Source of the DNA: Dechloromonas sp. A34
GTDB lineage: Bacteria; Pseudomonadota; Gammaproteobacteria; Burkholderiales; Rhodocyclaceae
Length of the DNA stretch: 64,000 nucleotides
Reading direction: 5' to 3'
NCBI RefSeq assembly: GCF_026261605.1
Contig: NZ_CP102486.1
Span: 248,001-312,000, forward strand
The notes under the pieces are model-generated. The model had not been told where the DNA came from and made no database searches. It was given only the letters and a program-made list of their open reading frames with translations. The translations under genes were made by a program, and so were the position numbers. Positions within the stretch are counted from its first letter, which is position 1. Each line of letters starts with the position of its first letter. Shown piece after piece: positions 56,498 through 64,000 of this stretch.

Positions 56498-56672
56498 TGA
56501 GGGGTACTGCGCCGCGCTGCTGCGTTGCAGCATCTTGAATTGACAGCGTTTTGCCGGTATATTTGATGGTTGCCTCAAAATTTCCTACAGGCCGGCACAG
56601 AAATTATGTTGCTCGGCTTTTTTCATCATTGGTCACTATTCACTGGCCAAGTTATTTGAAGGAATGCGTGTG

Positions 56673-61305
<4,633 letters not shown>

Positions 61306-61306
<1 letters not shown>

Positions 61307-62772
61307 TGGGCAAGCCGACTGGATTCATGGAATTCGAACGCCTTTCCGAGGCGTACGACCCGGTCGAACAGCGTCTGAAGCATTACAAGGAATTCGTTCA
61401 TACCCTGAACGACGAGGATGCCAAGACCCAGGGCGCACGCTGCATGGATTGCGGCATTCCGTTCTGCAACAACGGCTGCCCGGTGAACAACATCATTCCC
61501 GACTGGAATGACCTGGTTTACCGCGGCAACTGGAAGCAGGCGCTGGAAGTCCTGCATTCCACCAACAACTTCCCCGACTTCACCGGTCGCATCTGCCCGG
61601 CACCCTGCGAAGCCGCCTGTACGCTGACCATCAACGCCGCGCCGGTGGGTATCAAGTCGATCGAGCACTTCATCATCGACAAGGGCTGGGAGTCGGGCTG
61701 GGTCGTGCCGCAGCCGCCGAAGAGCAAGACCGGCAAGAAGATCGCCGTCGTCGGTTCCGGCCCGGCCGGCCTGGCCGCCGCCCAGCAACTGGCGCGTGTC
61801 GGCCATGCCGTGACTGTGTTCGAAAAGAGCGACCGTCTCGGCGGCCTGCTCGCCTACGGCATCCCCGACTTCAAGCTGGAAAAGACCGTTGTCGACCGCC
61901 GTATTGCCCAGATGGAAGCCGAAGGCGTTACCTTCAAGACCAAGGTCGTGGTCGGCAGCAAGGATCTGCCAGCCGGCATCAACAACGATGCGGCAGAAGT
62001 CGTCTCGGCTGATCAGTTGAAGAAGGATTTCGATGCGGTGATCCTCGCCGCCGGTGCCGAAGTGCCGCGCGATCTGCCGGTGCCGGGCCGTGAGTTGAAG
62101 GGTATCTACGCCGCGCTGGAATTCCTGATTCCGCAGAACAAGGAAGTCCAGCAGGGCAAGGCCAATCCGATCAACGTCAAGGGCAAGCATGTCATCGTCA
62201 TCGGTGGCGGTGATACCGGCTCCGACTGCGTCGGTACCTCCAACCGTCATGGTGCCGCCTCGATCACTCAGTTCGAGCTGATGCCGATGCCGCCGGAAGA
62301 GGAAAACAAGGCGCTGACCTGGCCCTACTGGCCGTACAAGCTGCGCACTTCTTCGTCGCACGATGAAGGTTGTTCCCGCGATTTCGCGGTGGCGACCAAG
62401 AAGTTCATCGACGACGGCAAGGGCAACGTCAAGGCGCTGCAGGCCGTTCGCGTCGAGTGGAAGGACGGCAAGATGGTCGAAGTCGCCGGTTCGGAATTCG
62501 AACTGCCGTGCGACAACGCCTTCCTGGCCATGGGCTTCACCAATCCGGTGAGCAGCCTGCTCGAAGCCTTCGGCGTCGCCAAGGACAACCGTGGCAACGC
62601 CAAGGCGACGACCGATGGTGACGGCTGCTATGCCACCAATGTCGCCAAGGTCTTTGCCGCCGGCGACGTCCGTCGTGGTCAGTCGCTGGTCGTCTGGGCG
62701 ATCCGTGAAGGTCGTCAGGCGGCGCGCGAGGTCGATCAGTTCCTGATGGGCGCGACCACGCTGCCGCGCTAA
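61306..62772 (+). CDS. gltD: glutamate synthase small subunit
   Basis: The 488-aa NADPH-oxidising subunit feeds electrons to GltB. N-terminal iron-sulfur cysteines are in [17 protein letters not shown] and [11 protein letters not shown]; the FAD site is [15 protein letters not shown] and the NADPH site [14 protein letters not shown]. Its start overlaps the gltB stop (TAATG). Confidence 0.96.
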
Positions 62773-62792: not shown

Positions 62793-62826
62793 AGCCCCGC
62801 CGGTCATGAAGCCGGCGGGGCTTTTT
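62793..62826 (+). terminator. rho-independent terminator after gltD
   Basis: AGCCCCGCCGG, 8-base loop, CCGGCGGGGCT and a T run. An 11-bp perfect stem. Confidence 0.92.
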
Positions 62827-62936
62827 GCTTTCTGGAGAATATGCCCCTAGATTTCAGATTGACCGAACCTGGCTGGTTCGAAGCAGTCAAAGAGGCGTAA
62901 GACAGGCTTCTCTGGCAGGCTGAAAGGAGTCGCATC

Positions 62937-64000
62937 ATGCGCAGGCTCATCTCCCTCAACCCGACGGTGCGTTGCATCGGGGTGGCCAGTTGTCTGGGCG
63001 CGCCAGTTGTCGGCTGCGAAGGCGGTCCCGAAAGCCTCAAGCGCGCAGCGCTGTCGTCGGTCATTCGCCATAACGGACTCGAAGCCTACTGGCCGGATAT
63101 GCTGATTCCCGAGCCGTCGGCCACGGCACTGAATTACTTGTTGAACCGCGTGGCCGATGCGACAGCTGCTGCCCTTGCGGCGGGTGATCGGCCGCTGGTC
63201 ATCGGCGGTGACCACAGCATGGCTGCCGGAACCTGGCGCGGCATCGGTCGCGCCCTCGGCGCGGCACCGGGACTGATCTGGATCGATGCCCACCTCGATG
63301 CCCATACCCCGGCCAGCAGTCCGTCCGGGAACGCTCACGGCATGCCCCTGGCAGCCTTGTTTGGAATGGGCGATCCGCTGATGACCGATATCCCGGGGCC
63401 GATCCTCGATCCGGCACGGACTGTGGTGATCGGTATCCGCAGCTACGAAACGGCGGAACGCGAACGTCTGGTGGCACTGGGTGTGCGCCTGTATGAGATG
63501 GCCGAAATTAACGAGCGTGGCCTGCCCGAGGTGTTTGCCGAAGCCCGCGCCGTGGTCGCCAACGGACCGTGGGGCATCAGCCTTGACCTTGATGCGATCG
63601 ATCCCGGGCATGCGCCGGGCGTGTCGACCCCGGTCGCCGGTGGCCTGATGCCGGAGGCCCTGGAGCAGGTCTTGCGCGGCGCCCTGCGCGAGCGCAACTG
63701 CGTCGGCCTGGAAATCGCCGAATACAACCCGCTGGCCGATCCCGACGGCCGGACGGCGAGACTGGTTCTCGGCCTGATCGACTCCGCCGCCGCCCCTGAT
63801 GGCGCTACCTTGCGGCGCTGGGAGGCCGGCTTCGGCGCCAACAACTATGCGCCGCTGCCGGTCGTCCTCAAGGAAGGGCGCGGTTGCTGGCTGACCGATG
63901 TCGACGGCAAGCGCTATCTCGACCTGATGTCGGCCTATTCGGCGACCAGTTTCGGCCATGCCCATCCCCGCCTGCTGGCCGCCATGAACATACAGGCGGG
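62937..64000 (+). CDS. arginase fused to ornithine aminotransferase (5' part; runs off the window)
   Basis: One frame stays open from ATG 62937 (AAGGAG 7 nt upstream) to the window end, 354 codons. Residues 1 to about 285 are a complete ureohydrolase: manganese ligands His93 (GGDHS), Asp117/His119/Asp121 (IDAHLDAH) and Asp217/Asp219 (SLDLDAIDP), plus SPSGNAHGMPL, typical of arginase. Without stop or ribosome site it continues as FGANNYAPLPVVLKEGRG and YLDLMSAYSATSFGHAHPRL, the start of ornithine aminotransferase (RocD). The fused enzyme would turn arginine into urea and glutamate semialdehyde, next to gltBD. Arginase is favoured over agmatinase because of the fusion partner. The 110 bp before it hold no riboswitch I recognise. 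Confidence 0.85.
   Translation, partial: MRRLISLNPTVRCIGVASCLGAPVVGCEGGPESLKRAALSSVIRHNGLEAYWPDMLIPEPSATALNYLLNRVADATAAALAAGDRPLVIGGDHSMAAGTWRGIGRALGAAPGLIWIDAHLDAHTPASSPSGNAHGMPLAALFGMGDPLMTDIPGPILDPARTVVIGIRSYETAERERLVALGVRLYEMAEINERGLPEVFAEARAVVANGPWGISLDLDAIDPGHAPGVSTPVAGGLMPEALEQVLRGALRERNCVGLEIAEYNPLADPDGRTARLVLGLIDSAAAPDGATLRRWEAGFGANNYAPLPVVLKEGRGCWLTDVDGKRYLDLMSAYSATSFGHAHPRLLAAMNIQA

Follow-up and report, generated by a model that had tools for sequence, protein, structure and literature searches.

An in-frame fusion of arginase and ornithine aminotransferase genes in Dechloromonas sp. A34 and related Rhodocyclaceae

The 3' end of the window studied here (the whole analysed stretch of 64,000 nucleotides, positions 248001-312000 of the one contig, 4,757,803 bases, of the Dechloromonas sp. 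A34 genome) raises the question whether arginase and ornithine aminotransferase (OAT), which a preliminary description of this DNA had read in one frame, are indeed encoded as a single protein. In the list of open reading frames, the frame at 62937..63998 (+) stays open to the window edge. The whole-genome sequence gave the complete gene, G000:C1:310937-313027 including the stop codon, as a single uninterrupted frame of 696 amino acids, whose first 354 codons, beginning with ATG, occupy 62937..64000 (+) and whose end lies 1027 bases past the window. Pfam assigned two domains and no other, Arginase at residues 14-283 (PF00491, 197 bits; 62976..63785, +) and Aminotran_3 at residues 301-685 (PF00202, 412 bits), the latter also recognised by TIGR01885, starting within the window (63837..64000, +) and continuing beyond it; no stop codon separates the two. 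The one-frame reading therefore holds for the full chain, and the aminotransferase completes past the window, with its domain extending to residue 685 and including the Schiff-base lysine, K540.

The C-terminal half scored above the cut-off of the RocD model TIGR01885 (486.9 versus 378.4 bits) and below that of a second OAT model, NF003145 (515.8 versus 656). The N-terminal half failed the cut-off of the rocF model TIGR01229 (158.5 versus 227.6 bits), which nevertheless ranked first among the five NCBIfam models matching it. As had been described, all six manganese ligands are present in the query: H93, D117, H119, D121, D217 and D219, placed by alignment to 1cev with a ligand numbering that we assume. 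Together with H134 and E262, which we take to be His141 and Glu277 of human arginase, they are kept in 105 of the 105 loci counted as fused, a count that enters some genomes twice, by handle and by name, and includes the doubtful locus L087. Residue 123 is a histidine at the position of human arginase Asn130, presumably a contact to the substrate carboxylate, in 104 of these 105 loci and in 61 of 64 unfused relatives. On the aminotransferase side, Y304, Y334, R429, E483, D511, K540 and R662 were listed as invariant in an alignment of 100 fusion proteins; by alignment they match Y55, Y85, R180, E235, D263, K292 and R413 of human OAT, again in a numbering that we assume, and alignments to OATs indicated that, besides K540, the tyrosine and arginine residues selecting ornithine are kept. 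Judged from these alignments, the metal ligands and most of the predicted catalytic residues are kept.

An AlphaFold model of the whole protein (pLDDT 90.7, pTM 0.85) has an arginase fold in its first half, for which all 50 fold matches listed were arginases, and a second half whose best 14 fold matches were OATs. When the arginase half was compared with the PDB by sequence, the best 36 matches were arginases, followed by 3-guanidinopropionase, with agmatinase and guanidinobutyrase lower. In the model, the last arginase helix (residues 272-285) leads through a short turn into the N-terminal aminotransferase helix (residues 289-299), with about 3 residues between the two, and residues 289-299 align with human OAT, starting at human residue 36-37. 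The junction (residues 281-299; 63777..63833, +) is short, as first described, but the roughly ten residues that had been taken for a linker are, according to the model, this aminotransferase helix itself.

A base missing from the assembly or the reads, by which two genes would appear as one, had been named as something that would refute the join, and the adjacent gene for the large subunit of glutamate synthase, lying in two overlapping frames, makes local indels possible. The join recurs, however, in many independent assemblies, isolates among them, and pN/pS over residues 280-303, calculated for the query against own-genus relatives, was 0.19-0.36 in 8 of 8 comparisons, resembling that of the flanking domains. 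The junction is under coding constraint. A missing base is ruled out by the identical join in independent genomes together with this constraint, and we regard an artefact as extremely unlikely; because independent genomes share the layout, the arginase-OAT fusion is confirmed as genuine and not a product of chance or assembly error. The junction also contains an in-frame TTG (Leu292), from which a second, shorter aminotransferase could be made besides the full chain. This codon lacks a Shine-Dalgarno sequence, and more generally a Shine-Dalgarno sequence of at least 4 bases before an in-frame ATG, GTG or TTG near the OAT start was absent in 102 of 105 fused loci, whereas of 37 loci with separate frames, among them L024 and L026 with the aminotransferase first, 22 have a comparable one. 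This comparison leaves an internal start unsupported, and a second product is very unlikely. The distance between an EIAEY-type and a GANNY-type motif on either side of the junction was 42 residues in 48 of the 63 loci yielding a value and 44-45 residues in five (L087 among them), the remaining ten being misplaced pattern hits, including that in the query, for which inspection by eye gave 42.

Directly 5' of the fusion gene lies a gltD-like gene (glutamate synthase small subunit; 61306..62772, +), a name taken from the preliminary description and not from a family scan. Between the two, a terminator-like hairpin was recognised by eye (62793..62826, +), with a G+C-rich stem of 11 bp, an 8-base loop and a T run. 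A scan gave a shorter form of it (L008:1809-1825), where about an equal number of sites is expected by chance, and 10 of the 12 own-genus rows in the upstream alignment contain one that resembles it. As had been noted, gltBD precedes the gene, but since the hairpin and its T run separate it from gltD it is probably a transcription unit of its own. The Shine-Dalgarno-like GAAAGGAG (62922..62929, +) 5' of the start codon is identical in 8 of 12 aligned own-genus upstream rows, the query included. One strict sigma-54 promoter pattern had no match in the 12 own-genus upstream stretches, L008:1600-4200 gave no sigma-70-like site, and no RNA family reached its gathering threshold in L008, the stretch that holds the fusion gene. 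The glutamate synthase large subunit (56664-61306) is divided into overlapping frames of 1339 and 208 amino acids and is a single frame of 1546-1586 amino acids in eight same-genus relatives, so either the genome carries a frameshift here or the assembly contains an indel.

Within the family, 42 of 150 sampled genomes, from 23 of 68 genera and with the query genome counted, gave a match across the junction at E <= 1e-100. Forty of these are free of internal stops, two carry one stop each, and two of the 42 are cut by contig ends. Two-gene homologues in close relatives had been named as an observation that would refute the fusion; when these were looked for, the outcome favoured the fusion, all 42 family matches crossing the junction. 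In the genus sample, 16 of 76 genomes (query counted) had a full-length match and one more a partial match with a stop; given this patchiness, with 60 of the 76 genomes lacking a full-length match, the gene is dispensable. The partial match, at L054 (G314), covers residues 224-487 with an internal stop and is possibly a decayed copy. The order sample yielded full-length single-alignment matches in 9 of 300 genomes, again counting the query. Among the 369 genomes of the class sample no reliable fusion was found besides the query: eight other genomes match both halves, seven of which contain stops and have the halves in two separate frames, the eighth being L087, and 10 further genomes match the aminotransferase half alone. 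L087, considered as an independent second fusion in another family, was rejected on account of ambiguous letters at its junction. In the phylum sample (398 genomes) two reached E 1e-160, namely the query and one matching the aminotransferase half only.

The best 80 of 533 loci in named genomes comprise 53 fused genes, 4 split pairs and 23 arginases whose fetched flanks lack an aminotransferase, some of the latter loci being cut by contig ends. Fused genes occur in named isolates of Dechloromonas, Azoarcus, Thauera, Zoogloea and Aromatoleum, with Dechloromonas denitrificans, D. agitata, Azoarcus indigens, Zoogloea dura, Thauera butanivorans, T. phenolivorans, Aromatoleum toluclasticum and A. 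evansii among the carriers, and in metagenome-assembled genomes (MAGs) of Sterolibacterium, Sulfuritalea and Candidatus Accumulibacter. The fused gene is also found on a MAG contig under the title Bordetella parapertussis (L249), which is probably a wrong label. The search for two-domain proteins that had been proposed was carried out with two fusions as queries, and in each case 120 of the 120 matches listed (the best 120 of 278 and of 285) contained both domains; single arginases fell outside the length limit by design, and the 8000 candidates with most shared words were scored. Source names in these searches include Pelomicrobium methylotrophicum and Candidatus Methylocalor cossyra, the latter, as we assume, a gammaproteobacterial methanotroph. 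The source names among the matches listed refer to an aminotransferase every time, the majority of rows being nameless.

The origin of the fusion can be approached through the unfused relatives. In 26 of 29 class-sample loci with a related arginase, these being the ones with a fetched locus, the aminotransferase gene adjoins with the arginase first, mostly at gaps of -35 to +30 bases and once at 176; the few large overlaps stem from the choice of start. At L094 a clean stop, an AGGAGG site and then a start lie between the two genes. Two separate genes, arginase first, were likewise found on five alphaproteobacterial plasmids (5 of 20 matching plasmid records examined): arginase and aminotransferase are neighbouring frames on two Azospirillum plasmids and one Shinella plasmid, and rocF and rocD are annotated on plasmids of Skermanella mucosa and Rhizobium sp. 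NLR16a. The split pairs seen belong to more distant lineages. The earlier statement that RocF and RocD are normally separate is right insofar as they are separate genes elsewhere, but in other Proteobacteria these are often already neighbours with the arginase first, and the fusion is therefore a modest step from a known operon.

In a first concatenated tree (83 rows, L087 kept) the fused label needs 3 changes. A second one with 80 rows, from which 26 had been dropped (L087, L089 as a near copy of L088, and 24 other fused own-family rows by thinning) and to which 23 proteins from the searches had been added, needs 2, and a tree uniting all 50 fused rows was 6.6 log units better than the free-search tree, with p-AU 0.62. 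From these concatenated trees, a single fusion of an arginase-aminotransferase operon appears favoured but is not proven. The arginase-only tree is poorly resolved and needs 7 changes for the fused label; the stand-alone arginases L192, L193, L209, L243 and L228 sit among fused ones in it, which speaks for exchange or for a later loss of the aminotransferase half, and against a single history that is perfectly clean.

On the 3' side, prkA/yeaG, yeaH and spoVR (L008:4108-8896, beyond the window) begin 79 bases after the fusion gene, and in other genera they are again found behind it, frequently with an aldehyde dehydrogenase gene between. Among 41 fusion loci, with neighbour families named from one scanned representative each, the fetched stretch contains a PrkA/YeaG gene in 22, a sodium:solute symporter in 12 and a gltD homologue in 10, all 10 from the own genus, and an aldehyde dehydrogenase lies <=60 bases downstream in nine; at least one of PrkA/YeaG, symporter and aldehyde dehydrogenase occurs in 35. 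The corresponding numbers for the 53 fused named loci, whose genomes overlap with this set, are PrkA 18, dehydrogenase 15 and symporter 14. One representative of the downstream dehydrogenase was nearest to L-piperidine-6-carboxylate dehydrogenase (713 bits versus a cut-off of 730), an enzyme of lysine rather than ornithine breakdown. In three Sterolibacterium MAGs (L192, L193 and L209), where the fetched flanks contain no aminotransferase, a stand-alone arginase of the fused clade is followed after 25-28 bases by a sodium symporter gene, and this direct succession hints that the symporter carries arginine or ornithine. In Escherichia coli the yeaGH promoter is bound by NtrC, and cells require yeaG to adapt to nitrogen starvation (PMC4664914); for Azoarcus olearius, diazotrophic growth induces prkA-yeaH, in passages that mention neither arginase nor arginine (PMC8467165).

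The query genome also encodes a urease, and a 1247-residue frame in it contains a proline dehydrogenase domain and may by its length be read as PutA-like. Four other class-III aminotransferases were found in it, two of acetylornithine type, BioA and HemL, and no second OAT is among these four. A second, stand-alone arginase-family gene (L009:4736-5713; G000:C1 about 2394735-2395712), 44% identical to the fused one, overlaps the end of a DnaJ-like gene (J-domain motif seen by eye), and in the arginase tree its sister is a similar arginase, likewise encoded alone, of Azonexus sp. R2A61 (L222). Cyanophycin synthetase is present as well; two tandem synthetase-like genes, one above and one below the curated cut-off, lie at G000:C1:1384030-1388823, and such a tandem pair is common in the family. 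Co-occurrence did not support cyanophycin as the arginine source, the synthetase occurring in 24 of 42 family genomes with the fusion versus 56 of 108 without it (Fisher p 0.59, 150 genomes).

From the domains, residues and gene order, the protein is very probably a bifunctional enzyme converting arginine to urea and glutamate semialdehyde, derived from a rocF-rocD-like pair, and the compact route proposed at the outset is plausible for one chain in which both predicted active sites are conserved. An ancestral arginase-aminotransferase gene pair would have fused in frame. At a two-manganese site the N-terminal half would hydrolyse L-arginine, releasing urea and ornithine, and the C-terminal half would use pyridoxal phosphate to transfer the delta-amino group of ornithine to 2-oxoglutarate, yielding glutamate and glutamate 5-semialdehyde. 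In the query genome the PutA-like protein and urease would then complete the degradation as far as glutamate and ammonia; in several relatives the oxidation would fall to the aldehyde dehydrogenase encoded right behind the fusion. The enzyme probably serves to salvage both the carbon and the nitrogen of arginine, above all when nitrogen is limiting.

Two observations run counter to arginine as the substrate, the rocF score under the cut-off (158.5 versus 227.6) and the histidine at the Asn130 position, and because of them the substrate could be shifted. Another guanidino substrate for the arginase half, or a homoarginine/lysine-type pair of reactions, would agree with both and with the piperidine-6-carboxylate-dehydrogenase-like neighbour. 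Against this, both the curated model and the residues clearly mark the second half as an OAT, and arginases made up all 50 fold matches listed for the first half and its best 36 PDB sequence matches, with 3-guanidinopropionase, agmatinase and guanidinobutyrase lower; we therefore consider a shifted substrate unlikely. As for the advantage of the join, channelling of ornithine between the two sites is a reasonable hypothesis. It is nevertheless rather probable that the bifunctional enzyme works without it, the join merely fixing 1:1 production and co-localisation while ornithine leaves into the cytoplasm after the first step, just as it would with two separate genes. Adjacent and partly overlapping split genes in other genomes of the class, the short junction of the model and the three Sterolibacterium MAGs that keep a stand-alone arginase among fused ones, next to a symporter gene, are in line with this, but the near-fixed junction length (42 residues in 48 of 63 loci) points to a constraint on how the domains are arranged. 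A doubtful further idea is that the chain assembles into one large particle with a symmetry common to arginase trimers and aminotransferase dimers, so that ornithine would move between adjacent active sites and be kept from the biosynthetic pool. If true, arginine would be broken down while the ornithine for arginine and polyamine synthesis stays separate, and operon fusion would have made an insulated catabolic route.

Compared with known systems, the rocF-rocD operon (arginase and ornithine--oxo-acid transaminase) has the enzymes and the order of the fusion but separate genes instead of one chain, and other genomes of the own class carry a closer version of the pair. The Bacillus and Thermus arginases (2cev, 2ef4) are about 33-34% identical to the arginase half, which differs from them in ending in an OAT and in having His for Asn at what we take to be the carboxylate contact. 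RocD of Bacillus anthracis and human OAT are without the arginase half. AgrE of Anabaena, an arginine dihydrolase / ornithine cyclodeaminase with PutA downstream, is likewise a single bifunctional protein leading from arginine through ornithine to the next product (PMC8262935), but it forms proline and ammonia, without urea or an aminotransferase, and its domain types are absent from the fusion, in which Pfam found only PF00491 and PF00202. In the BIO3-BIO1 protein of plants and fungi (dethiobiotin synthetase / DAPA aminotransferase) an aminotransferase is also joined to a pathway neighbour, and a title cited in this source names evidence for substrate channelling (PMC9309667), but the pathway is that of biotin and the partner is different. 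We found no description of an arginase-OAT fusion in the open-access literature searched, in agreement with what had been said of its novelty, and no biochemical data for any fusion member. The fusion is a conserved form, apparently undescribed so far, of the known rocF-rocD operon.

As the source names shown mention the aminotransferase alone, metabolic models of wastewater and soil bacteria may miss the arginase step, the bacteria concerned being Dechloromonas, Azoarcus, Thauera, Zoogloea and a Candidatus Accumulibacter MAG. Moreover, the locus offers a well-sampled case of an operon turned into a single protein, and because the split state persists in related lineages, the questions of fusion, channelling and assembly are directly testable.
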